The position numbers and the translations under genes were made by a program. 64,000 bases of DNA from an uncultured Lentisphaeria bacterium (GTDB taxonomy: Bacteria; Verrucomicrobiota; Lentisphaeria; Victivallales; Victivallaceae), in the NCBI GenBank assembly GCA_903863035.1, contig CAIPAT010000336.1, positions 1-64,000 on the forward strand, written 5' to 3'. Below, one piece after another: positions 14,651-29,729 of the stretch. Position 1 is the first letter of the stretch. Each line of letters opens with the position of its first letter. Below the pieces are notes generated by a model. The model was not told the DNA's origin and did no database searches. It saw nothing but the letters and a program-made list of their open reading frames with translations.

Positions 14651-17600
14651 TCATTTTACTGCCGGCGGCAGCACGGTGGCGGCTATCACACACAGCAGGC
14701 CGTCGCCAGCTGCAAATATTTCAACGGCTTCAATCTCCGTCTCCGGTCGCGAATTGGCCAGTTCTACCAGGAACAGGCCGTATTCATTGAAGCGTTCGCT
14801 AAGAAATTTGAATGCAGGAGACGCTCCTGCTGACTGGGGCGTCAGGAACCAGTCCTGCAGATGTCTGCCGTTTTCAAGCGGCATGATTGTTTCCCTGCCG
14901 TCGGTATAACGCAGTTTAATTTCTCCAAGTATCTTGGCTCCAGATGGCACATACATGGCGGTCAGCAGGAAAGCGATTCCGGCGGAACGTCCGCCGACCG
15001 GCAGCCGGAGCGAACTGCCGCTGATCCCCCGCCAGTCCGCCGTCGAGAGCATCGCCGGATAGTCGGCGCACCGGAACTGGATTCCCTTGATGACCGGTGC
15101 TGCCTGAACCTTTTTTAGCATATCGTCGAGTCCGACCGAATTGCCGCCGCGGGTGAACATCCGCCGTGCCTCCTGGTTTTTAACCGGCAGTGAACGGGTT
15201 CCGGCAATGGGGGTGACTGACTGCGGTTGCAAAGATACGTCATCGACCACGATTGTGCCTGTTTTTTCCAAACCGACGATGAAAGCGATGTTTCCGGTCG
15301 GTGGACGCGGGAAATCCGCTGTTACCCGGTAATGTTGAAATGCTCCTGCCTTGATCAGGCCGAGCTGATAATGCTTATAGACGTTGCCGCTGCGGTCGAA
15401 GACCGCCAGATAGGCTTCGGCCGGCGCTGTTCCCAGGTTTTTGAGCCATGCGGAAAATACATAACTGCCGGGTTCGTTGAGCTGCTGCTCGAAGAAAGCG
15501 TAGACCCGGCCTTTGCCTGAGCTGGACAGTGACAGTGCGTAATCGCCGCTGCGTCCACCTTTGACCAGGCCGATGCGGCCTTGGGGATCGTAGGTGCGAT
15601 CCCGGAACTGCCAGTTGGCAACGACGGCGTTGCCGAGTCCGCCCATGGCGATGTCGCCGCTGATTTCCTCAAAGCCGCCGTTGGGGCAAAGTTCTGCCGC
15701 AACCGCTTCCGCCGCGATCACTTTGACTGGCTGGCGGCTCACTGCGAAGAGCATCTCCAGTGCTTGGTCCGGACGACAGCTGTCGCCTTCACGGGTGAAT
15801 TTTACCTCCCGGCCATAAACATCGGAGATACTGACGATGTCGCCGCCCAGCTGCCACCGGCGTGGTAAACTGGCCTGTCCCAGTGCGGTGAACCAGGAGC
15901 CGTCGGTACGGCGGAAACTATATTTTAGATCGAAATATTTGACTTTTGGATCATCGATCACCCCGGCAAATTCGCTGCATTTGCGCAGTTGATTCTGCAT
16001 TGCCGCCAGAGTGGACAGTACCGGATTCGGGCTTAAAGTATAGTATGAGAAAAAGAAGTCATCGCCGAAACTGAAATATTTCTCAAAACCGAATTCAATG
16101 AACCAGAAGAAGATCGCAGCGGTCAGTAAACTCTGTTTTTTGCGGTCGGCGATGGTATGCCACATCTGCTCCGTCTGCCAGATCGGCATGCCTGGTTTGG
16201 CTTCTTTGATCGCCGCCAGCAGGGGGGCGATGCCCCACCGGCCCTGATAGGCGTGGATATTGTAGATGTCGCAGTATTGGGCGGCGCCCATCCTGAGCAG
16301 ATCAAAAGGCATTTTCTGGTCGCAGAGTGCGCCATAGCCGAAACCGCTGACCAGGATGCGGCAGTCGGGATCAGCCTTTTTCGCCGCCTGCCAGGAAACC
16401 TTGAGCAGTTCGAAGTAGTCCTGGGTCGTACCTGAGAAGGATGCGGGCGGACCTGGCGGATGCCAGTCTACTTCGTTCCAGATCTCCCAGTGGCTCACTC
16501 GTCCCTTGTAGCGGGACACTACCTGATAGACGTAGTTTTCCCAATCACTCAGCCGGGCCGGTTTGTGCCGGGCGGCCATGGAAGAGTTCTTGTGACCTGG
16601 TTTTACTTCCGGGTCAGCGGCCCAGACCGGGGGATCACCGAGGATGCCGAGGCAGTTGACCCCGTTGCGTTCGGCGGCGGCCACCATTTTGTCGGCCAAT
16701 GTCCAGTCGAAGCGTCCTTTTTCCGGTTCGATAGCATTCCATTTGAAAGCATCGCTCCGGCACCAGTGCAGATCTAGTTTGGCCAGCACTTCAGTGTGGT
16801 CAAAAAGGTGGTGTCCGAGATAGGCGGCGAACCTGCCGTCTTTGACCTGCGGATCAGTCGCCGGAATAACGGCATGGGTGAACTGCCAGCGGCGGTCTGC
16901 CCGTCCCGGCGCTGAAACAGTCATGTCCAAATCATAGAATCCATTCGGCAGCGGCGGCAGCAGAAGTTCACGGGGGACCAGCACGGAACGAGGCGGCAGT
17001 TCGAAATCGTATTCCCTGTAATCGGCCTTTTTACCGTCAATGTCAGTAATCTTCAATTTGACATGGTATTTTACCGTTGAATTGGCGTAGTTGCCGGCAA
17101 TCAGCGGCAGTTTCACCGGATTGCCGCATACGGTGAACGATTTTTCAAAATTCCATACCGGCGTCAGGAAGGAGAAGTCATCTCTGCCGGCGGTAATCCG
17201 GTACTCGGCTTGGGCTAAATTGTTTCCCGCGAGAAATGTGGTGTCCGGTCCGGCGGTGAAGGCCATACCCGGATTGGAGTTCAGTTCCGGATCCGGCAGC
17301 TGCCGGGATGAAATACGCATGGCGCTGACTGCGAAAGGCGCGGCGCGGCAAACTCTGAACTGCGCCGGTATCGGACCGATTTCTCCGGTGAAGTCGCTGC
17401 GGTTTTTCAGTTGACCGTTGACGTAGAGCCGCAGACCGTCTTTGCCCCAGCTGCAGGCGATGTTGACCGGCTTGCCTTGAACCAGCGCCTCCAGTCCAGT
17501 TTTGGCGTAGGAGGTCTGTTCTCCTCCTCTGCGGGCGACCGCAAAAAGACCACGTGAATTGTTTTCTCCGCTGGCGGTACAAATCCCCAGAATGTTACGG

Positions 17601-17857
17601 GCTGTCGAAGCGGCTAGCGGCTGGGCAGGGGACATCTCAAAGGCGAACGACCAGTCGCTTTCAAATTCCGTCGCTGGTTTGGCAGGAGTGACAGTGAGTT
17701 CGACTGTTCCAGCCCCCGTGTTGATGATACCGGGGGCATAGAAACTGACTAATTTGCCGTTATATTCTTCACATTCGGCGTTTTTAACTGCCTGTGCCTG
17801 CCCGGTTAACGCGGCAGCGGACAGTCCGCAACAGCATAACAGTATTTTTCTGATCAT
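14651..17857 (-). CDS. Secreted multidomain glycoside hydrolase (clan A, GH39-like)
   Basis: A 1068-residue exported protein with a signal peptide (residues 1-23). Residues about 45-190 look like a LamG/concanavalin-type domain. A TIM-barrel hydrolase domain spans about 335-620: YLGHHLFDHTEVL at its start, acid/base E462 in WEIWNEVDW, and candidate nucleophile E563 in IWQTEQMW, as in GH39/GH5-type retaining enzymes. Residues about 710-870 resemble a CBM4/9-like carbohydrate-binding domain (NGGFEE through VVDDVSL). The C-terminal 200 residues are unrecognised. It probably cleaves a complex polysaccharide outside the cytoplasm. It precedes the PHP gene and follows the GH130-like gene. Confidence 0.8.
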   Translation of the reverse strand: MIRKILLCCCGLSAAALTGQAQAVKNAECEEYNGKLVSFYAPGIINTGAGTVELTVTPAKPATEFESDWSFAFEMSPAQPLAASTARNILGICTASGENNSRGLFAVARRGGEQTSYAKTGLEALVQGKPVNIACSWGKDGLRLYVNGQLKNRSDFTGEIGPIPAQFRVCRAAPFAVSAMRISSRQLPDPELNSNPGMAFTAGPDTTFLAGNNLAQAEYRITAGRDDFSFLTPVWNFEKSFTVCGNPVKLPLIAGNYANSTVKYHVKLKITDIDGKKADYREYDFELPPRSVLVPRELLLPPLPNGFYDLDMTVSAPGRADRRWQFTHAVIPATDPQVKDGRFAAYLGHHLFDHTEVLAKLDLHWCRSDAFKWNAIEPEKGRFDWTLADKMVAAAERNGVNCLGILGDPPVWAADPEVKPGHKNSSMAARHKPARLSDWENYVYQVVSRYKGRVSHWEIWNEVDWHPPGPPASFSGTTQDYFELLKVSWQAAKKADPDCRILVSGFGYGALCDQKMPFDLLRMGAAQYCDIYNIHAYQGRWGIAPLLAAIKEAKPGMPIWQTEQMWHTIADRKKQSLLTAAIFFWFIEFGFEKYFSFGDDFFFSYYTLSPNPVLSTLAAMQNQLRKCSEFAGVIDDPKVKYFDLKYSFRRTDGSWFTALGQASLPRRWQLGGDIVSISDVYGREVKFTREGDSCRPDQALEMLFAVSRQPVKVIAAEAVAAELCPNGGFEEISGDIAMGGLGNAVVANWQFRDRTYDPQGRIGLVKGGRSGDYALSLSSSGKGRVYAFFEQQLNEPGSYVFSAWLKNLGTAPAEAYLAVFDRSGNVYKHYQLGLIKAGAFQHYRVTADFPRPPTGNIAFIVGLEKTGTIVVDDVSLQPQSVTPIAGTRSLPVKNQEARRMFTRGGNSVGLDDMLKKVQAAPVIKGIQFRCADYPAMLSTADWRGISGSSLRLPVGGRSAGIAFLLTAMYVPSGAKILGEIKLRYTDGRETIMPLENGRHLQDWFLTPQSAGASPAFKFLSERFNEYGLFLVELANSRPETEIEAVEIFAAGDGLLCVIAATVLPPAVK

Positions 17858-17943
17858 TCTTGATCCGTTCGGTTATGATGGTTCAAAAGTTAAAGACAGC
17901 GTCACGGCGTGCCCGATACCTTTTTAATAAGTGATTTGGCCGG

Positions 17944-18882
17944 TCACAGACCATTCAGGCAGGCGTCGATGATTTCATCCAGGTCGCCCTCCGCCAGTCC
18001 GATGCAGGTGTCGGCTATGCCGTAATATACCCGCAGCCGCCGTGTTTTCATATCGGCGATCGCGCCGGTGGCGAAAACGCATCCCGGAGTGCGTCCGCGG
18101 AATTCATAATCCTCTTCAGCGGTCAGCAGATAGCTTTCCATTCTGCCGATGATTTTTTCCGGATTTTCCAGGTCAAGCAATATCGCGCCGAGCGAGTAAC
18201 TCACAATGGAACAGGAACTGCTGACGCCGTGAATGATTTCCAGCCACCCTTTTTCGGTTTTGACCGGTACCGTCGGCCCGATTTTTTCCCAGTTCCAGTT
18301 GGTAAAGCCTTTCATCATAAAACGGTGATGGCCCCAGTGCACCAGATCCGGCGACCTGGAACTCCAGATATGTCCGCGCTCATTGGCGGCGCCCATGCTG
18401 TATGGACGTTCCAGCCGGTAGTAATACCCCCCGATTTTTTCCGGGAAGAGACAGGGGACGCGGTTATCCGGCAGCGCCACAATGTCCACCGGCTCGAAAC
18501 TGTTGAAATCTCTGGTTTTATACATCAATCCGATGCAGCCCATTTCCGAATTGCCGGGGCGGACGACGTAATATTCATCTCCGATTTGTGTCACCCGGCA
18601 GTCGATCGGATGATTGTCGTATTCACCGAACATTTTATCCGGATCACGGAAGAACACCGGTTTTTCGTGAATTGTAAAATTTATTCCATCCGTGCTTTCG
18701 GCAACGTGGGTGCGGGCATAGGATTGATTGCGCAACATTACCGAAACCAGCAGTATGGTTTTGCCGTTATAGATGGTTTGACCAGGATTGAACACCACAT
18801 CCGCCGGTCCCCACGGAAAATCTTTTGGCGTAATTATCGGGTTTTGCGGATGACGTTTCAGTAATGTTTCCTGTCTGAACAT
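17944..18882 (-). CDS. GH130-like beta-glycoside phosphorylase/hydrolase
   Basis: A 312-residue cytoplasmic five-bladed beta-propeller-type protein. The N-terminal block LKRHPQNPIITPKDFPWGPADVVFNPG and the segment FGEYDNHPIDCRVTQIGDEYYV match GH130 proteins, which phosphorolyse or hydrolyse beta-mannosides. It may process oligosaccharides released by the neighbouring secreted hydrolase. The start at 18882 has AGGAA just upstream; an upstream in-frame ATG at 18918 lies next to the pseudopilin stop codon and has no clear site. Confidence 0.85.
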   Translation of the reverse strand: MFRQETLLKRHPQNPIITPKDFPWGPADVVFNPGQTIYNGKTILLVSVMLRNQSYARTHVAESTDGINFTIHEKPVFFRDPDKMFGEYDNHPIDCRVTQIGDEYYVVRPGNSEMGCIGLMYKTRDFNSFEPVDIVALPDNRVPCLFPEKIGGYYYRLERPYSMGAANERGHIWSSRSPDLVHWGHHRFMMKGFTNWNWEKIGPTVPVKTEKGWLEIIHGVSSSCSIVSYSLGAILLDLENPEKIIGRMESYLLTAEEDYEFRGRTPGCVFATGAIADMKTRRLRVYYGIADTCIGLAEGDLDEIIDACLNGL

Positions 18883-18921
18883 AATATTCCTTCTTATTTT
18901 TAAATTGATATCACTCATCGA

Positions 18922-19719
18922 TTAATAGAAAATCCCGTCATGTCTTACCCACATGCTGTTGTCGTTACGGTAACCGACACTGGCCACCCAGGGGCCGTAA
19001 ATCGCACTTTGAGGATTGTTATACAAATTCATTGCCGCGGCTTCACCAAAACCACCTGCGGACTTTGCGCCGACCACATGCCCGTCAACAAAAACGGCGT
19101 TGCATTCGGTATTCCCCTGATGCGCCGGCCACAGAATCGGGCCGTTTCCCACGACGGAATAGGAATTGTTGACTCTGTAATAGCCGAGCGGGTTCATATC
19201 ACCGGCTGCACGGTTCTGTCTGGCAGATTCGACAAACATTATGGTTTTGGAAGTCGCGCGGCACATTGACAGTTTAAATGGTCCTGCCGGTCTGGTGGAA
19301 GACAGATAATAGTAATTCATCCCGTAATCGCACTGCGCCCACCCGGCATCGTCAAGATTGCTGACGTAAAAGGAAGGACTGTTCCAGAAATCCTGATAAT
19401 AAGAACTGGTCGGAGCCATGCGCGTCCGGGATGGACAGGTCAGCTGTTTCTTGGTGATGTCTTTGGTTGTGACCAGCACGCCCGTCCAATAATGTACGCC
19501 GCCCACGTCGCCCGGAACGAAGATATCGTTGTAACTGGAGAGGTAATTATGCATCGCCATTCCCAGTTGTTTGAAATTATTTTTGCAACTGGCGCTTCTT
19601 GACACCTCCCTGGCTTTGTTGAGCGCAGGCAGCAGCATTGAGGCGAGAATTCCGATGATGGCGATCACCACGAGGAGTTCGATGAGCGTAAAAGTACCTT
19701 GTTTTCGACTTTGTTTCAT
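18922..19719 (-). CDS. Pseudopilin with prepilin cleavage/methylation motif
   Basis: A 265-residue protein opening with [20 protein letters not shown], the type IV prepilin/type II secretion signal: cleavage before F and an invariant E five residues later, followed by a hydrophobic stalk. The C-terminal motif [16 protein letters not shown] is the H-X9-DG signature of PVC-type (DUF1559-related) pseudopilins. Such proteins are abundant in Lentisphaerota and often sit in glycan loci; they may form short pseudopili that aid secretion or substrate capture (inference). It lies between the LacI regulator and the GH130-like gene. Confidence 0.9.
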
Positions 19720-21057: not shown

Positions 21058-22713
21058 TTACTTGGTTGCGGGTTTCCTGATTTCAGTGGTTTTCTTGGAT
21101 TCCACAGGTTTTTCCGGAACAATGATGTCAAATTTTTCTCTGTTGCCTTCCGGAATTGTATTATTGCCCAGCACAACGCCATTAAATGTGATAACGTTTT
21201 TGTTGATTTCTGCTCTGGCCTTTTCCGCCGCCTTCTGCTTTTGTTCAGTTTCCGATTTAGCTTTAGCTTCGGAAAGTTTAATTTCTTCAATCAGGCGGTC
21301 AAGGGTCTTCTGATCCAGCGCCTGAACTCCGATAGTGTTGAGCAGACGGTAATAAGAAAGATAATAATTGCCCAGGGCCAGAGTACGGTCGATCTGAGTT
21401 TCCGCGGTTTCCAGCTCCATCCGGTCAAGTTCCAGCTTGGACAGTGCGCCGCCGGCGGTGAAGTTCTGGCGTGCTATCTTCAGATGATCGGCATATGCCA
21501 TATATACCTTTTCGTCAAGATCAAAACGCTCTTTCACTTCGATCACGTTGGCATGAGCAATACGCACCTGCGACATGACCCCGATGGACAGCGCCAGTGT
21601 TCTGAGCGAGATTTCATCGATTTCAGTATTGATGGTGCGATATTTGGCAATCTGCTGCGGGAGTTTCAGCAGGTTGTACGCTGCTCTCATCCCGATTTCC
21701 CACCAGCTCTGATTATAGAGGAACGAGTTGCTTGAATTGGTAAAGTCGGTGAATACTTTGACGTTCGGGAACATCATCAGGATGGTTTTTCTGGCTTCTG
21801 TTACTGTAACGCTGGTTTCGATATCGAGCTGATACAGTTCCGGGCGTTCCATCAGCGCGATTTTCTCAAGCAGGTTGATGTCGGGAAGCTGAATAGTGTT
21901 CATCTTCTGCAATGCCCTGGTATCGACTTTGATGTCATCGATCGGCAGATAGCCCATCAGTGCCCGCAGTTCAATACAGGAGTTCTGGTAACTGCGCTGA
22001 TATTCCATCAGCCGTTTTTCCAGCCGGATAAATCTTTTTCTTTCATCCAGGAGACGCAAGGGGGAGACTGATTTCGAGTCACTGATTTCGGCAAATACTT
22101 TTTCTATATTTTTACATTTGACCAGCAGCTTTTCGGTAGTTTCAATAGCGTCCTGAGTGGCCGCCACTTTGAAATATGTCTTGACGACCTCCAGTGTTAA
22201 GTTCTGGGCGGCGCGCCGTTTCTGTTCCATTGCGATAAGAGCGTTGTCTTCCGCCTGGTTGGCATTTAAGTAAGCGAGTCCGAAGTCAAGTACGCTGAGC
22301 GCCATTTCAACTTTGAATACATTCTCGCCTTTATCCGAACTTTTGCTCGGCGGGTAAGTCTGCGCTCCGGTTTGGAGGTTCTGGCTGCTCGATCCCGGTT
22401 CGTTGTTTCTGCCGGTAGCATCGTCAGAAATCGTCAAGTCCGGAAGCATGCCGAGCATTTCAGCGGTAACTCGTTCCTGGGCAATCCGTTCTTTTAAGTC
22501 AAATACTTTCAAGTCGAGGTTCTGTTTCAGGGCAATGGAGATACATTCAGGCAGAGTAAAAACGGTGCCTTGAGGAATAACTTTCTTATTGATTTTTCCG
22601 AAATGCTCGTTGGCTTTTTCAACGCGCTGCTGACGGTAATATTCAGAATCATGACATCCGAATGCCACCATTGCTATAGCTAAAGCAAATACTGAACGAA
22701 ATACTTTTAACAT
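21058..22713 (-). CDS. TolC-like outer membrane efflux lipoprotein
   Basis: A 551-residue outer-membrane factor of the TolC/OEP type. The signal ends with AMVAFGC, a lipobox with Cys20. Long helical coiled-coil segments (about 140-245 and 340-440) alternate with strand regions, including the typical TLALGNYYLSYYRLLNTIG near the end of the second repeat. The C-terminal 100 residues are charged (KQKAAEKARAEINKN...) and unusual. It is the second gene of a two-gene minus-strand operon after the 82-residue protein and faces the adaptor/M50 operon, for which it likely provides the outer-membrane channel (inference). Confidence 0.85.
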   Translation of the reverse strand: MLKVFRSVFALAIAMVAFGCHDSEYYRQQRVEKANEHFGKINKKVIPQGTVFTLPECISIALKQNLDLKVFDLKERIAQERVTAEMLGMLPDLTISDDATGRNNEPGSSSQNLQTGAQTYPPSKSSDKGENVFKVEMALSVLDFGLAYLNANQAEDNALIAMEQKRRAAQNLTLEVVKTYFKVAATQDAIETTEKLLVKCKNIEKVFAEISDSKSVSPLRLLDERKRFIRLEKRLMEYQRSYQNSCIELRALMGYLPIDDIKVDTRALQKMNTIQLPDINLLEKIALMERPELYQLDIETSVTVTEARKTILMMFPNVKVFTDFTNSSNSFLYNQSWWEIGMRAAYNLLKLPQQIAKYRTINTEIDEISLRTLALSIGVMSQVRIAHANVIEVKERFDLDEKVYMAYADHLKIARQNFTAGGALSKLELDRMELETAETQIDRTLALGNYYLSYYRLLNTIGVQALDQKTLDRLIEEIKLSEAKAKSETEQKQKAAEKARAEINKNVITFNGVVLGNNTIPEGNREKFDIIVPEKPVESKKTTEIRKPATK

Positions 22714-22764
22714 GACAGCCCCGCTTCTTGAATTTCTCTGACTACATTTAGATAGGTTTAACCC

Positions 22765-23013
22765 TTACTTGGCATTATTGGTTTTTTGGAGAATCCCTGC
22801 TTCAAGAAGTTTGTCGATAAGATTCTGCATCGAATTGAAGGCGTTCAGAAAGCCCTGCGGCGGCATAATAATCCGCTCTTTACAAAGAGGCTGAGGCTCG
22901 CCTTTGCCATCAGGATCCGGTTGCAGGGTAACGAAATCAAATCTTACCATGCCGCCGGCAAAATGAATCTGCCCAATTCCGTCAGCAAAGATTTCTTCTT
23001 TAGTGTTGTCCAT
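22765..23013 (-). CDS. Small unknown protein of the M50/HlyD locus (82 aa)
   Basis: I do not recognise this protein. It is 82 residues, without signal peptide or membrane segment. The middle part is beta-like (GIGQIHFAGGMVRFDFVTLQP), followed by IIMPPQGFLNAFNSMQNLIDKLLEAGIL, a likely amphipathic helix. ATG 23013 is preceded by AGGAGAG with good spacing and is chosen over the frame start at 23031. It lies 51 bp before the TolC-like gene on the same strand and is divergent from the adaptor genes, so it is probably a dedicated cytoplasmic component, chaperone or regulator of that system. Confidence 0.75.
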   Translation of the reverse strand: MDNTKEEIFADGIGQIHFAGGMVRFDFVTLQPDPDGKGEPQPLCKERIIMPPQGFLNAFNSMQNLIDKLLEAGILQKTNNAK

Positions 23014-23051
23014 TTTTCTCTCCTGAATCAATCTATTTTTGAGTTAAATTA

Positions 23052-23068
23052 TATTCTTAATAAGAATA
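23052..23068. promoter_or_regulatory. 17-bp palindrome in the divergent promoter region
   Basis: TATTCTTAATAAGAATA is a perfect dyad around base 23060, placed 39 bp upstream of the 82-residue protein gene and about 220 bp upstream of the HlyD gene. It could be an operator shared by both operons. No regulator gene is adjacent. The rest of 23014-23285 is AT-rich and shows no gene. Confidence 0.45.
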
Positions 23069-23285
23069 AGACTTCTTCTGTCATCAATATAAAACAACTA
23101 GAACATAACATTAAAAAATTAATTTGCAAACTACTTTTTTATAAAAATCACTCATTCGGAATAATTGATTTTCGAGTATCAGAACGCCGGAAAAAAAACA
23201 ACAATAATTTTTAAATAATCCAAAGCATTTTGCACGAGTAATGATTATATTACACTGATTTTGCAAGAACAGAAAGGTATTGACA

Positions 23286-24146
23286 ATGAATTATTTATTC
23301 CGGTTATTATTGAGCAATTGCAAATCTTCCGGACTTTCTTCTGCGGTTTGTCTGCTTGGATTGTGCCTGTTGTGGATTGCGCCGACAAATGTGTCAGTCG
23401 CCGGCGAAGCGCAAGTTGAAGCAGATGAATATCCGACAAAGGTTGTCATATTTCCCTTTCGCCAGGCGGTGATTTCGGCGGAGGTTGACACTGCGGTCAA
23501 GCAATATAATTTCAAAGAAGGGGATTGCTTCAAGGAGGGGGAAGTTATTGCCCTGCTTGAGGATAAAATTTATCTGCAGAAATACGAAAAGGCAAAATCC
23601 GCGCAGCTTGAGTCTGAAGCTTCGATGCAATTTGCGCTGAAAAATTTCAAACGCAACGAGGAAATGTATCAAAAAGGCATTCAGGGAATGCAGGATTTGG
23701 AAAAAAGCGAATTGGAAAGAGATATCGCTGCTTCAAAATTGAATTTCTCTGTTGCAAATATGAAAATGGCGGAAATAGATTTGAAGGCCTGCCGTCTGGT
23801 TGCGCCGTTTGCCGGGCGTTTGATCAAAAAACTGGTACAGGAGCACGAATTTGTGCGCGCCAGCCAGCAGGTAATCAATATTATCGATGATTATCAACTG
23901 CTGGCGGTGATGCACCTGCCGTCTTCCGAAATCAATAAAGTGGCCATTGGTAAAAAAATGCGTGTCTGGATTGATGAAACCAGAACCGAACACGAAGGAA
24001 CGATCAATGTGATTTCCGGCGAGATTGATCCCGGCAGCCGGACCTTTGAAATAAAAGTTCTTCTCGATAACCGTGCCAGAAAGCTGGCGGCGGGAATGTC
24101 AGGCAAACTGATGAAGCAATATGACAAAAACAGCGGAAAAAAATAA
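23286..24146 (+). CDS. HlyD/RND-type periplasmic adaptor protein
   Basis: A 286-residue membrane fusion protein. An N-terminal hydrophobic segment (about residues 18-38, ending SVAGEAQ) is a signal peptide or anchor. The split lipoyl/barrel-sandwich domain is seen before and after a helical hairpin (about 95-165, rich in K, E and Q), with LVAPFAGRLIKKLV completing the lipoyl half, then a beta-barrel domain (VISGEIDPGSRTFEIKVLLDN). Such adaptors connect an inner-membrane transporter to TolC. ATG 23286 has AAAGG at 23273-23277. The stop codon overlaps the next ATG by one base, so the two genes are translationally coupled. Confidence 0.88.
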   Translation: MNYLFRLLLSNCKSSGLSSAVCLLGLCLLWIAPTNVSVAGEAQVEADEYPTKVVIFPFRQAVISAEVDTAVKQYNFKEGDCFKEGEVIALLEDKIYLQKYEKAKSAQLESEASMQFALKNFKRNEEMYQKGIQGMQDLEKSELERDIAASKLNFSVANMKMAEIDLKACRLVAPFAGRLIKKLVQEHEFVRASQQVINIIDDYQLLAVMHLPSSEINKVAIGKKMRVWIDETRTEHEGTINVISGEIDPGSRTFEIKVLLDNRARKLAAGMSGKLMKQYDKNSGKK

Positions 24147-25567
24147 TGTCTGAAACTCAATCCGGCAAAGAACAAAAAGAATTATTACTGCTTAAAGGCA
24201 AGCTGAATGCCATTTCCGCAGTTTTAAAACTGGGCCATGAAGCTTTCGAAAAGAGAACTCTGCAGCAACTGGCTAATCATATTGTCAATAACAGCCGGAT
24301 GGTGGCTCCGTATGAACGTTCCGCGCTGATTGATATGCGCGGAAGCAAACCTAGAATACTTGCGGTGTCCGGGCAGCCGGAAGTTAATGCCAACTCTGAA
24401 TACTGTTTTAATCTGACGAATTTGATTCAGCCGCTTGCCGGACTGGACAAAGTGGCGGTGCTTACGGATGAGCTGCTTAAAGAGAAAAACGCCAAACAAA
24501 GCGCGCTTGATGCTTTTGAATACCTTAAAGCATGTTTCCCGCAAATGCTGCTGATTCCGATCAGGCCGGTAGCCCGCGGCGGGGACGCGGCTCCGGAATT
24601 GCTGATCTGGGCCGTGGAATTTTCAGACCAGGCCAATCTGGCCAGCGCCGGCAGTCTTCTGCCGTTGTTGTGCCAGCACTATGCAGAAGCGCTTTTTTTC
24701 ACCCTTCATGAAAAACAAAAAATTATTCACCGTGTGATTGACCGCAAAAAATGGCTTAAACCATCGCGGGTGCTGCTGATATTGTTCTGCTTGTTTTTTA
24801 TCTCCCTCTTTGTGATGCCGATCAGGCAGAATGTGGCGGCGGATTTCGAGATCATGCCGGGGAAAGAGAATTTTTACTATGCCCCGTTTGACGGAGTAAT
24901 TGAGACATGCTACAACAATAAAAGCGGCAGCAGCGTCGTGCCGGGAAATATAATACTGACATACAATACTGAAGAACGCGCTTTTGATCTGGCCGGCGCG
25001 GAAAACGCCCGCAACAAGATTTCGGCTCAACTGGATCTGATTCAGCAGCAATCATTCAAAGATATTTCCAAGCGCGGGGAAGTCCGGATGCTTGAACTGC
25101 AGAAAGAAAAAGCGGAAATAAGTATCAGGCGCAACAAATGGTTTTTGGAAAAAAGCGCGATACGGGCCAAGCAGACTGGAATCCTGGACATCTCCGACAA
25201 GGATAAGCTCGAAGGCAAGGCTGTACGCGCCGGAGAAAAGCTGTTTGAGATATTATCCACGGAGAGCCTGATCGCCTTGATTGCGCTGAATGAGCAGAAT
25301 GCCTCAGTGCTGGGCGATGACTGCAAGATTACATTATATCTGCATACCATGCCTGAAATGCCAATAATCGGGAAAATTGAATCAATCAGTCCGAAACCGG
25401 TTCTTACCGAGAAAAAAATTTATTGTTATATGATCCGGATGACGATGGAATACCAGAAAAAAGATCTCCTTTGCGGGATGCGCGGGGTAGCCAGGATTGC
25501 CGGTCCGCGGGTGCCGCTCGGCTATTATTTATTCCGGAATATCGTGCTGTGGTGGAGACGGGTTTAA
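24146..25567 (+). CDS. GAF-like/HlyD hybrid adaptor membrane protein
   Basis: A 473-residue protein. Residues about 15-190 form a soluble domain of GAF-like appearance (FEKRTLQQLANHIVNNSRMVAPYERSALI, then LLIPIRPV), which would be cytoplasmic. A transmembrane helix follows at about 207-224 (LLILFCLFFISLFVMP). The rest is periplasmic and HlyD-like: lipoyl half FYYAPFDGVIE, a helical hairpin (about 280-325), then IRAKQTGILDISDKDKLEGKAV and a barrel domain. This is a second adaptor with its own cytoplasmic sensor-like part. It lies between the classical adaptor and the M50 protein, 21 bp before the latter. Confidence 0.8.
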   Translation: MSETQSGKEQKELLLLKGKLNAISAVLKLGHEAFEKRTLQQLANHIVNNSRMVAPYERSALIDMRGSKPRILAVSGQPEVNANSEYCFNLTNLIQPLAGLDKVAVLTDELLKEKNAKQSALDAFEYLKACFPQMLLIPIRPVARGGDAAPELLIWAVEFSDQANLASAGSLLPLLCQHYAEALFFTLHEKQKIIHRVIDRKKWLKPSRVLLILFCLFFISLFVMPIRQNVAADFEIMPGKENFYYAPFDGVIETCYNNKSGSSVVPGNIILTYNTEERAFDLAGAENARNKISAQLDLIQQQSFKDISKRGEVRMLELQKEKAEISIRRNKWFLEKSAIRAKQTGILDISDKDKLEGKAVRAGEKLFEILSTESLIALIALNEQNASVLGDDCKITLYLHTMPEMPIIGKIESISPKPVLTEKKIYCYMIRMTMEYQKKDLLCGMRGVARIAGPRVPLGYYLFRNIVLWWRRV

Positions 25568-25588
25568 ACCGCAAGGACCTGGAAAATC

Positions 25589-27718
25589 ATGGCTAATATA
25601 CCTGACAACCCCGCGCCGGAAAAGAAATATTTTACCGGAACGCTGCGTACCGATCTTGAACTTTTCGGCGGCGAGCCAGATACCGACGGCGGTACTACAT
25701 GGATAGTTTTTGATCCGGTGAGTGACAAATATTTTCGTCTTTCTGAAGAAGATCATCAGATTATCGGCTGCATGTCAGAAAATATGGAACTGGATGCTTT
25801 TCTGGCAAAAGTAAAAAATCGCGGTATACATGCGGACAAAGAAAAAATCCTGAAAATCCTGAGTTTTCTGAATCAGAGCAATCTGATGCTTCCCATGTAT
25901 AAGGTGACGGAGGAGAAGGTTGAGAAACATCAGGCGATGAAACGGCGGAACTTCATCCATTTGCTGCTTTATACCTATCTGTTTTTTAAAGTTCCGCTAC
26001 TTTCGCCCGATCGCTTTCTTGACCGTACCGTGAACGTTGTCAAAACGATTTTCAACAAATGGACTTTTCTGATGCTGGGCGTGATTGCGGGAGGCGGATA
26101 TATCTGCCTGGTCGTCAAATGGCAGAAGCTGACTGAGGAATTTATTAATACGATTAATTTCCAGGGGATGGTCCGCTATTCGATTGCAGTTGTCATTATA
26201 AAATGTGTCCATGAATTTGCTCATGCGTATACCGCTAAAGCCGTCGGAATCAGGGTAAGGCGGATGGGAATGGCTTTCATTGTATTTTTTCCCAGACTTT
26301 ACACGGACCTTACTGACTCCTGGCGCATTCCAGACCGGCATAAAAGACTTCTGATTGACGGTTCCGGAATTCTGAGCGAAATTATCATCGGAGGCTGGGC
26401 TGCGCTGGTGTGGGCCTATTCCGGCCCGGGCTTGACTCAAGCCGTCGCATATTACATTTTTACCGTAAGCATCATCAGTACGGCACTGATCAATGGAAAC
26501 CCTTTCATCCGCTATGACGGGTATTACCTGTTGATGGACTTAGTCAATATTGATAATCTTCAGATGCGCGGGACCGAGCGCGTCCGTGAACTTTTCCGGA
26601 AATACTGCCTTGGAATTGATTACATCCCTAACGATAATACACAGGGCTGGAAAAAATATTTTTTAATTATTTTCGGTATTTCATCATTCATCTACCGGAT
26701 TTTCCTATATACCTCAATTATTTTGGTAGTATATTATTACTTCGAAAAAGCGATCGGCATCGTATTGCTGATGCTTGAAATCTATTTACTGGTGATCAAG
26801 CCTTTCATGACGGAAACAAAAATGATTATGGCAGTGAAGAACAAGATTAAAACACGTAATTACATAATTTCGCTGTCAGGCGCCGGAATACTGCTGCTGA
26901 CTTTATTTATGCCGCTGCCATGGAATATCGCGATTCCATGCGAAGTAAAACCGGAAGTGTCGAATATGATTTATGCCCGCACAGACGGCTTCCTTGAAGA
27001 ACTTTGCGTTAAAGACAAAGGCAGCGTAAATAAGGGGGATATTATTTTTAAGCAGCAAAGCCCGTTTATTGAATGGGATTTGAAAGAAGCGGCCCTGGAC
27101 AAAGTCATCGGCGCTTTTGAACTGGATTTCGCTCAAAGCAATACTTCCACACTCGGACTCGCCCAGGTGAAACTGCAAGCATTAAAAAATGCTGAAATTA
27201 CGCTGGACGAACTGCGCCATAAAAAATCTCTTTTGACTGCCGCCAGCGCGATTGACGGTATCTTCGCCATTTATGACCTGCATCTGAAACCGGGCAAATG
27301 GCTGCATAAGGGCGAGATTATTGGAGAAGTTTATGGGCCGGAAAAGCAGATCATTGCCGCATTTATCAAGGAAACTGATTTCAAAAAGATTTCCGGCAAT
27401 GAAAAGGTTTCAATCTCGCTGGAAGACGGAATCGAGTCATATCGCGGTAAAATTGTTTCCGCGGCCCCGGTACCGGTTATCCTTGCGCCGTCGCCGTTGA
27501 TTAATTATTTTGGCGGCCGCATTATGTGTTATCCGCTTCCTGACGCCAATTTGTTTCAGCCGATAGAGCCTTATTACAGAGTCAATATCGCGGTGGCGGA
27601 CGGCGTGAACCTGCCGCCGGGCAGATCAGGTACGGTATGGCTTCGCAAATATTCTTCCATTGGCGGCAATTTCCTTCGCGAGGTGCTTTCCGTTCTTCAA
27701 AAAGAACTTTATTTTTAG
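25589..27718 (+). CDS. PqqD-like/M50 metalloprotease/HlyD fusion protein
   Basis: A 709-residue inner-membrane protein with three parts. Residues about 18-105 resemble a PqqD-like winged helix (WIVFDPVSDKYFRLSEEDHQI), the fold that binds peptide leaders in RiPP pathways. Residues about 155-420 form a site-2-protease (M50) core: HEFAH at 208-212 in a membrane helix and the third zinc ligand D310 in NGNPFIRYDG, so the active site looks intact. After a helix at about 428-447 the C-terminus carries a HlyD/lipoyl-like periplasmic domain (NMIYARTDGFLEELCVKDKGSVNKGDII, and ASAIDGIFAIYDLHLKPGKWLHKGEII). It is the third gene of the operon. A protease-exporter role is inferred. Confidence 0.85.
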   Translation: MANIPDNPAPEKKYFTGTLRTDLELFGGEPDTDGGTTWIVFDPVSDKYFRLSEEDHQIIGCMSENMELDAFLAKVKNRGIHADKEKILKILSFLNQSNLMLPMYKVTEEKVEKHQAMKRRNFIHLLLYTYLFFKVPLLSPDRFLDRTVNVVKTIFNKWTFLMLGVIAGGGYICLVVKWQKLTEEFINTINFQGMVRYSIAVVIIKCVHEFAHAYTAKAVGIRVRRMGMAFIVFFPRLYTDLTDSWRIPDRHKRLLIDGSGILSEIIIGGWAALVWAYSGPGLTQAVAYYIFTVSIISTALINGNPFIRYDGYYLLMDLVNIDNLQMRGTERVRELFRKYCLGIDYIPNDNTQGWKKYFLIIFGISSFIYRIFLYTSIILVVYYYFEKAIGIVLLMLEIYLLVIKPFMTETKMIMAVKNKIKTRNYIISLSGAGILLLTLFMPLPWNIAIPCEVKPEVSNMIYARTDGFLEELCVKDKGSVNKGDIIFKQQSPFIEWDLKEAALDKVIGAFELDFAQSNTSTLGLAQVKLQALKNAEITLDELRHKKSLLTAASAIDGIFAIYDLHLKPGKWLHKGEIIGEVYGPEKQIIAAFIKETDFKKISGNEKVSISLEDGIESYRGKIVSAAPVPVILAPSPLINYFGGRIMCYPLPDANLFQPIEPYYRVNIAVADGVNLPPGRSGTVWLRKYSSIGGNFLREVLSVLQKELYF

Positions 27719-27853: not shown

Positions 27854-29587
27854 TCAGTTACGGTTTCTGCGGATATTAATTTTCTTCGGCTGTCCGGGAG
27901 GCTCTGGTTTAGGCGGGACCAGGTATTTTACGGCTGTGGAATTGCAGAATGGGCAGACAGGCGGTTTCAGTGTATCAATTTTGTCGTATTTAATCGGACT
28001 GTCATCTGACTTTTTCTCAATGCGGGTAAAAATTCCGTTGCAATAACTGCATTTCCACTGAAATCCAAGCGGGCCTTTGCATTTAGAACATTTTTCGGTG
28101 AAGATATTTTTGATGGGCCTGGTCTCACAAGTTTTGCAGCTTGCGCACATGACGTTGATCTGCAGTCCGCCTTTAGTGCTCATCTGGTATATTTTTATGC
28201 CGCTGTAAGTAATGATGCCTGTAAGTGAGACCATAAAGAGAAACAGGAAAATCACTACTTTTCGCGGCATTTTGCTGAATATTCCTATTTGCATCATCCA
28301 GTCGATAATCAGCGCAAAACTCGCAAAGAAGAAATTGTGTTCGGGGATTTCAAGAACATATTTTACCATCGTTCTTGCAGTCTTAGTCATGGAAATAGAC
28401 GTTTGGGTTTTTTCAGCATCCCGTTCCGGATATTTAGCCTGCAATGCTCTGGGCATAACCGGAGGCATGGTCGCAGATTTGGACGGCTCGGTGCTCTTTG
28501 GCACCGGTGTTTTTGACAAAAGATGCTTTACCGGAAGAGGCAGCGCGCCTCTGGATTCAAAGCGTTTATCGCTCTGGTCCGGCGACTGGAGATTGATTTG
28601 AGCAGACGCAGTTCCATTGGCTGATTGTTCCGGCTTCAAATTGCCTTCTACCGGGGGAGGGGGTGATTCTGATTCTGCTGGAACTTCAAAAACTTTGTTA
28701 CATTTGGCACACTCCCCTTCCTGCCCCGCAAGCTCCTTTGGCAGCCTGTATTTCTGACCGCAGGCTTTACACCAGAAAATGACATTTTCCTGTGGAGATG
28801 CACTTGCAGGCGCATTGTCTGACAGTCTTGGAACGACCATATTTCTTTTGCATTTGGCACATTCCGCCAGTTGTCCGCCTAAATCCTTTGGCAAACGATA
28901 TTTTTGATTGCAAACTTTACAGCGGAAAATAATATCATCAGGTGCTTTGTTTTTTGACGTGCTGGAACGAACGCTGATCTTCTGGATTTTATCTTTATTT
29001 TTATCGACAACCGGAATAAAGCTCGCAATGGCAGTAGCTTTTTCAATGGCTTTGCGCGATTCCGGCGCAGGCGGCCGGTCTTCCGATTTTCCCGGAACTA
29101 TAAAAGCATTGTGGCATCTGGAGCATTCCCCCTCCTCGCCGGCAATTTCTTTTGGCAGCCGGTATTTCTGGCCGCAGGATTTACACCAGAAAATAACACT
29201 TTCTTTTGCAGATGCACTGTCCGATTGTTTGGGAACAATCATATTTTTTTTGCATTTGGCACATTCCGCGATTTGGCCGCCGATGCTTTTGGGCAGCCGG
29301 TATTTCTGGTTGCATATTTTGCAGCGGAAAATAATATCATCGGGGGCTTTGTTTTTTGACGTGCTGGACGCAATTTTGATTTCCTGGATCTTCTCTTTGT
29401 TCTTGAGCACGGGAGTCAGGCCGGTCACGGTATTATCTTTATTGACGGAACTGCCAGGCGGGATTTCAGATTCTTGCGGAACCAGCATTTGGGTTTTGCA
29501 TCTGATGCAGTCCAGAGTATCGCCTGAACAATTGTCATCCAGTTCATATTTTTGATTGCATTTTTTACACCGGAACCTGATACTCAT
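27854..29587 (-). CDS. Membrane protein with five N-terminal zinc ribbons
   Basis: About 577 residues. Five zinc ribbons of spacing CX2CX16CX2C occupy roughly residues 7-30, 88-111, 135-160, 225-248 and 275-298; ribbons 2-3 and 4-5 with their linkers (STSKNKAPDDIIFRC) are a tandem duplication of about 120 residues. A linker with S, P and K leads to a hydrophobic region near 410-430 and a transmembrane helix (KVVIFLFLFMVSLTGIITYSG, about 445-465), then a C-terminal tail with further CxxC pairs (CASCKTCETR, CSKCKGPLGFQWKCSYC, CPFC). Function unknown; metal binding and membrane location are predicted. Start chosen at 29587, where the first ribbon begins, over 29614. Confidence 0.75.
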   Translation of the reverse strand: MSIRFRCKKCNQKYELDDNCSGDTLDCIRCKTQMLVPQESEIPPGSSVNKDNTVTGLTPVLKNKEKIQEIKIASSTSKNKAPDDIIFRCKICNQKYRLPKSIGGQIAECAKCKKNMIVPKQSDSASAKESVIFWCKSCGQKYRLPKEIAGEEGECSRCHNAFIVPGKSEDRPPAPESRKAIEKATAIASFIPVVDKNKDKIQKISVRSSTSKNKAPDDIIFRCKVCNQKYRLPKDLGGQLAECAKCKRNMVVPRLSDNAPASASPQENVIFWCKACGQKYRLPKELAGQEGECAKCNKVFEVPAESESPPPPVEGNLKPEQSANGTASAQINLQSPDQSDKRFESRGALPLPVKHLLSKTPVPKSTEPSKSATMPPVMPRALQAKYPERDAEKTQTSISMTKTARTMVKYVLEIPEHNFFFASFALIIDWMMQIGIFSKMPRKVVIFLFLFMVSLTGIITYSGIKIYQMSTKGGLQINVMCASCKTCETRPIKNIFTEKCSKCKGPLGFQWKCSYCNGIFTRIEKKSDDSPIKYDKIDTLKPPVCPFCNSTAVKYLVPPKPEPPGQPKKINIRRNRN

Positions 29588-29729
29588 GGCTGCTTGTTTC
29601 CCGAATTCGATCATTTCGTCATAATAAACTGTCGGTAATATATCCTTTCACTTAAATTTATAAAGTCCTGAATTGCAAAAAATTCAAGCTTTTAATCCAT
29701 GATTTGAGACGCAGATAATTGTTGTTAAT

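Follow-up and report, generated by a model that had tools for sequence, protein, structure and literature searches.

Gene content of the locus

The DNA analysed here is a stretch of 64,000 nucleotides (hereafter the window) from contig CAIPAT010000336.1 of an uncultured Lentisphaeria bacterium (assembly GCA_903863035.1, order Victivallales), in which positions 21058 to 27718 carry a five-gene locus that probably belongs to an export system for giant proteins. An earlier note on this DNA had placed five genes in this interval, and all five open reading frames (ORFs) are intact at those positions. On the reverse strand, the first gene (21058-22713) encodes a TolC/OEP-family outer-membrane channel of 551 amino acids (aa) (PF02321, E=5e-28, 98.5 bits) with a possible lipoprotein signal, MLKVFRSVFALAIAMVAFGC, and the second (22765-23013) encodes a small DUF3467-like protein of 82 aa with a β-β-β-α arrangement by model. 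Divergent from these two genes, the forward strand carries a HlyD/RND-type (resistance-nodulation-division) periplasmic adaptor with an N-terminal signal or anchor (23280-24146; ATG at 23286, 286 aa), a second, long adaptor composed of a cytoplasmic domain of ~205 aa, a transmembrane segment and a HlyD barrel-sandwich region (24146-25567), and a 709-aa fusion of a PqqD-like domain, an M50 site-2-type protease and a HlyD-like region (25589-27718), assigned from Pfam models, alignment and tree. The first adaptor matches TIGR01730 with 141.9 bits against a cut-off of 94.9, and the second exceeds the cut-offs for HlyD_3 (38 bits) and HlyD_D23 (35 bits).

The PqqD-M50-HlyD fusion, abbreviated below as M50-HlyD, is the defining protein of the system. 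It exceeds the Pfam cut-offs for Peptidase_M50 (PF02163, 31.4 bits) and HlyD_3 (24.1 bits), and both protease motifs previously claimed for it, HEFAH at residues 208-212 and D310 within NGNPFIRYDG, are present. Residues H208, E209, H212 and D310 are invariant across 25 homologues, and the HExxH motif was found in all 103 checked. According to the AlphaFold model, the protein is polytopic, with HExxH and the distal Asp motif located in predicted membrane helices. This invariance of the catalytic residues fits a predicted protease. The proposed PqqD-like N-terminus is supported by a match to NF050069 (residues 36-104, E=3.5e-5), and the adaptor nature of the C-terminus was confirmed by a profile match to MacA (4dk1, 4e-9) as well as by fold matches of the AlphaFold model (mean predicted local distance difference test score, pLDDT, 80.8) to MexA, MacA and Spr0693 at ~1e-12. 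In addition, the PqqD-M50 model of the daptide intramembrane metalloprotease, NF041824, covers residues 31-403 with 145.6 bits, below its cut-off of 300. The PqqD-like N-terminus and the M50 domain are common to both proteins, but the 379-position daptide model is without the adaptor C-terminus that the window fusion possesses, and the daptide system acts on small peptides, whereas the proposed cargo of the M50-HlyD system consists of giant proteins.

Beyond the fusion gene, the reverse strand encodes a 586-aa protein that combines repeated zinc-ribbon units of the CxxC type with a transmembrane segment (27854-29614) and also adjoins the locus in one sister genome (L026, 77% identity).

Distribution and classes of M50-HlyD loci

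The triad formed by the HlyD adaptor, the long adaptor and M50-HlyD recurs in dozens of genomes, beyond chance. Relatives of M50-HlyD were found in 25 of the 41 genomes of the window's order (the whole-genome sets are drafts) as well as in 264 sequence stretches from the species collection, which belong to Lentisphaerota, Planctomycetota, Thermodesulfobacteriota and Pseudomonadota. The triad is kept in Lentisphaerota, while the Pseudomonadota examples include Azospirillum, Pelagibacter, Burkholderia and E. coli plasmids. Among 80 M50-HlyD loci, that of the window included, the long adaptor is present in 69, the HlyD adaptor in 66 and an OEP/TolC protein in 30, in line with the proposed co-occurrence of these genes across genomes: the triad is conserved, often together with TolC. 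The arrangement TolC-HlyD-adaptor-M50 was found on plasmids of Azospirillum, Magnetospirillum, Burkholderia, Variovorax and E. coli; the E. coli operon occurs in 24 of 5426 genomes with at least 99% identity, and 21 of its 25 places are on plasmids.

The supposition that no ATP-binding cassette (ABC) pump is consistently linked to these genes held across the same 80 loci, as exporters of the type I secretion system (T1SS) type of at least 500 aa lie in the flanks of six loci and in none inside the operon. Clustering of neighbours gave no recurrent pump-like neighbour either, and a consistently linked ABC or RND pump was thus ruled out. These counts bear on the idea of small-molecule or metal efflux, in which the adaptors and TolC would work with an RND or ABC pump whose gene lies elsewhere, and the operon would have taken in the M50 protein as a stress-response protease. 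Efflux would agree with the first adaptor exceeding the RND_mfp cut-off and with the wide sharing of TolC-type channels, but no pump co-occurs across the 80 loci, the fusion of M50 and adaptor is both old and conserved, and the consistent neighbour is a giant leader protein (see below), which makes this explanation very improbable.

The system was called undescribed in the earlier note, a description that did not survive comparison with the literature, where an M50-HlyD/GAF-HlyD/HlyD locus, sometimes with OEP, was published in 2015. Kamneva, Poudel and Ward (2015, PMC4452313) reported a secondary SecA_DEAD locus with M50/HlyD, GAF/HlyD, HlyD and sometimes OEP genes, and remarked that an ABC transporter is missing from it. 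In their proposal, SecA is the ATPase and the M50 protein is the pore; the biological role of the locus was called completely unknown, and no substrate was named (PMC4452313). The gene set of that locus (M50-HlyD, long adaptor, HlyD, sometimes OEP, no ABC) is the same as in the window type, and its M50-HlyD is a full-length homologue of the window fusion.

A tree of 93 M50-HlyD proteins is divided into two classes with an SH-aLRT support of 100. In class I (22 rows, 16 of them SecA-adjacent), the M50-HlyD gene adjoins a secondary SecA of ~650-700 aa, in Verrucomicrobiota loci and on one Rhodobacteraceae plasmid. None of the 71 rows of class II, which includes the window, has an adjacent SecA, and the SecA label requires three changes on the tree versus 15 in shuffles. 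A SecA encoded elsewhere in the genome was ruled out for the window's order, where each genome has one SecA of canonical size: a PF07517 search detected a single full-length SecA in 38 of the 41 genomes, and among the remaining three, two have a single SecA gene split over contigs and one has none. As a positive control, the same profile does detect the secondary SecA in class I. Class II is without a dedicated SecA.

The second adaptor has the HlyD domain and the cytoplasmic N-terminus attributed to it previously, but the GAF-like character of its cytoplasmic part was not confirmed. No Pfam GAF match was obtained for any of 22 class II long adaptors (the window member and 21 relatives), whereas Pfam GAF is present on class I long adaptors. 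Profile comparison of the class II region with the class I GAF region revealed a weak likeness only (hhalign probability 26-31%), and the long adaptors measure ~470 aa in class II versus ~615 aa in class I. Other differences set the two types of loci apart as well. The published locus has a secondary SecA, whereas class II has none at the locus and none is found in genomes of the window's order; TolC is usually inside the operon in class II and only sometimes present with the published type; and the cargo leader is LE[DE]RxLF[DE] with DUF4347 in class II versus LEPRILLSA in class I. Since neither a secondary SecA nor a Pfam-detectable GAF domain was found, the window locus is, on sequence grounds, assigned to a SecA-less class of the published orphan module, as its variant and not as its member.

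Giant leader proteins as probable cargo

A common leader-bearing protein, for which the earlier note had suggested a search, does accompany the system. Giant repeat proteins with a shared N-terminal tag (median length ~1500 aa) are the sole strongly recurrent partner of class II loci, found at 42 loci versus 8 for the next best partner; because unlabelled neighbours were clustered by single linkage over repeat proteins, the count of 42 is approximate. The leader of the Lentisphaerota giants follows the pattern M..[FY].LE[DE]R[VI]LF[DE][GA]A and is succeeded by DUF4347, and the Pseudomonadota variants, LEPR or LESR, are likewise followed by DUF4347, a domain present in every class II giant tested. 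Among ORFs of at least 600 aa near M50-HlyD, 18 of 140 possess the leader motif at the N-terminus, compared with none of 840 internal windows (p=2e-16).

The giant gene lies between TolC and HlyD, in the order TolC-giant-HlyD-adaptor-M50, for example at loci L127, L132, L137, L140-L142, L145, L146, L148 and L251. At L243 and L246 it is located directly downstream of the 82-aa and TolC genes and divergent to the triad, in a layout like that of the window, and a leader giant was also found in Victivallis vadensis (L120). On plasmids, the annotated neighbours are an Ig-like gene of 13.4 kb in E. coli, a DUF4347 gene in Burkholderia and a 48.7-kb tandem-95 gene in Variovorax, to which a LEPR-XLL gene in Thalassospira and a calcium-binding gene of 24.4 kb in Alisedimentitalea can be added. 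Four of the five readable N-termini of plasmid giants open with a stretch that is basic or short, after which comes EPRILLSAD, LESRQLFDGAA, LEPRVVYDAS or LEARYMFDAAA; in the Alisedimentitalea giant, LEPRLLLAAD is located just upstream of the annotated start. Class I giants and the Thalassospira giant exceed the cut-off of 17 of the NCBIfam model LEPR-XLL (NF012209), while Pseudomonadota class II leaders are below this cut-off or unmatched. The hydropathy of the leaders is 1.2-2.25 over 12 residues, without a typical Sec h-region, and the use of Sec would therefore be unusual.

The association extends to whole genomes. DUF4347 is present in 16 of 19 genomes of the window's order with full-length M50-HlyD versus 3 of 36 without it (p=2.5e-8), and in 8 of 11 versus 12 of 229 genomes of Alphaproteobacteria (p=7e-8), although these p-values are optimistic because related genomes were counted as independent. 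The window's own genome encodes two leader giants elsewhere, of 4883 and at least 4091 aa, with two DUF4347 domains each, and ~2 kb upstream of either giant lies an 82-aa paralogue. In the literature searched, outside of which are preprints and most subscription journals, there was no paper on class II or its cargo.

Several further ORFs were noted around these proteins. Just upstream of the two own-genome giants there are ORFs of 292 aa (L164 10194-11072), starting with MYKFKEKIFFDAM, and of 347 aa (L165 9508-10551), starting with MVFEMYKLEEKVFVDGM, which possibly represent a diverged second family of leader-bearing cargo; a Pfam search of the 347-aa ORF gave no match. The open frames with DUF4347 include those of 16206 aa (G027:C15, ~10 kb) and 9334 aa (G010:C12, ~28 kb).

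The 82-aa protein had been counted as a part of the system, but it turned out not to be specific. Its family is found in 13 of the 80 M50-HlyD loci and adjoins the triad in sister genomes; however, the window's genome has seven copies, of which two adjoin ABC exporters, and the family also occurs in genomes without M50-HlyD. The DUF3467 model (PF11950) matches two of nine homologues (best E=0.00078) and not the window member, while a DUF3467 protein with 78 bits stands at the same position in the Thalassospira locus. A Foldseek search of the 82-aa model (pLDDT 84) against the PDB gave no significant match, the best being PC4-like with E=0.18, and the role of a SecB-like chaperone is thus unsupported. 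No relevant paper on DUF3467 was found within the same literature. The 82-aa protein is most aptly seen as an accessory to exporters of giant proteins at large, probably on the cargo side, and may be a cargo or chaperone-like factor. The window's own contig holds, shortly after the end of the window, a second export locus (L254, G000:C336 65666-72572) with genes for a C39-like ABC exporter, HlyD, a DUF3467 protein resembling the 82-aa one and a repeat protein of the AIDA type. At L166 (G000:C179 2525-6929), genes for an 851-aa ABC exporter and HlyD have an 82-aa paralogue adjacent, and at L168 (G027:C10 123581-124752) the 82-aa gene is present in four tandem near-identical copies.

Proposed export route and its alternatives

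Judging from gene neighbourhoods and leader patterns, we consider it likely that the locus encodes a class II M50-HlyD exporter, by which giants would be recognised via their N-terminal leader and would exit through an adaptor-TolC conduit; the giants are probably the cargo of the system. Binding of the giant's N-terminal leader would fall to the PqqD-like domain of M50-HlyD, a role suggested by analogy because PqqD domains act in peptide maturation and the fusion resembles the daptide protease. At the inner membrane, the M50 site may cut either the leader or the chain, and docking of the three adaptor-fold proteins on TolC would create the conduit through which the giant would reach the surface. 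As for the motor, the dedicated SecA of class I makes the housekeeping SecA/SecYEG the simplest candidate. In one gut Lentisphaerota clade of class II, yajC and then secDF follow the M50-HlyD gene at five loci (L137 15107-18075, L140, L142, L146 and L148; Pfam YajC and SecD_SecF_C), in related genomes that may reflect one event. This gene neighbourhood points to Sec.

Alternatively, as the earlier note had supposed, M50-HlyD could itself be the inner-membrane translocator, working as a pump or channel that lacks an ATPase. In favour of this reading, M50-HlyD is a polytopic protein with an adaptor region attached, and class II loci have neither an ABC pump nor a SecA linked to them; on the other hand, no M50 protein is known to transport proteins, the invariant catalytic residues fit a protease, and no energy source is evident. 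The SecA of class I and the yajC-secDF clade of class II point instead to Sec, which is therefore no less likely than an M50 pump to drive the inner-membrane step. Overall, we regard a translocating M50 protein as unlikely.

The invariant active-site residues and the resemblance of the PqqD-M50 part to the daptide leader protease are also compatible with a maturation system, in which Sec or an ABC exporter takes the giants across and the task of the M50-HlyD/TolC complex is limited to their processing or anchoring at the envelope. DUF4347 giants without M50-HlyD exist in some genomes, and ABC exporters are also encoded in the window's genome, in line with this scenario. Nevertheless, TolC and three adaptors in one operon have the design of a conduit and not of a processing complex, and the giants are without a typical Sec signal peptide, so that a role restricted to maturation appears doubtful to us.

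Several observations weigh against the export of giants by class II loci. There is no giant at the window locus, where the neighbour of the TolC gene is a LacI regulator, and many class II loci have no leader ORF in their flanks, which are often incomplete. DUF4347 is found without M50-HlyD in 12 Alphaproteobacteria and three genomes of the window's order; it is thus not exclusive to M50-HlyD genomes, and some DUF4347 proteins must exit otherwise. The LEER/LEDR leaders of Lentisphaerota, those of the own-genome giants included, have no match to LEPR-XLL NF012209, and the link between the leader variants therefore consists of position and pattern. Finally, no GAF domain could be detected in class II.

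At the window locus, the LacI regulator is adjoined by reverse-strand genes for a GH10-like 1068-aa protein, a GH130 phosphorylase and a DUF1559 pseudopilin-like protein (window positions 14651-19719), a polysaccharide-use cluster that occupies the site where relatives have the giant gene.

Similar to type I secretion (HlyB/HlyD/TolC), the M50-HlyD system combines a HlyD adaptor, a TolC-type channel and giant repeat-rich cargo. In contrast to type I secretion, which has an ABC transporter, the window system has none, its M50 protease is joined to an adaptor, and the conserved tag of its proposed cargo is N-terminal. We tentatively raise the possibility that these loci represent a distinct diderm secretion system, characterised by a non-Sec N-terminal LEPR/LEDR leader, processing by a PqqD-site-2-protease-adaptor protein and TolC exit without ABC, RND or dedicated SecA, which would be distributed over at least four phyla and include E. 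coli plasmids.

The new element in this analysis is a probable cargo and signal for a published module of unknown role, as the link to giant leader proteins in both classes provides candidates for the cargo, the signal and the receptor or protease. The presence of the SecA-less version on E. coli plasmids makes genetic testing possible. If the proposed route is true, it would give some of the largest bacterial proteins a way to the cell surface, with an intramembrane protease in the place where a pump would be expected.

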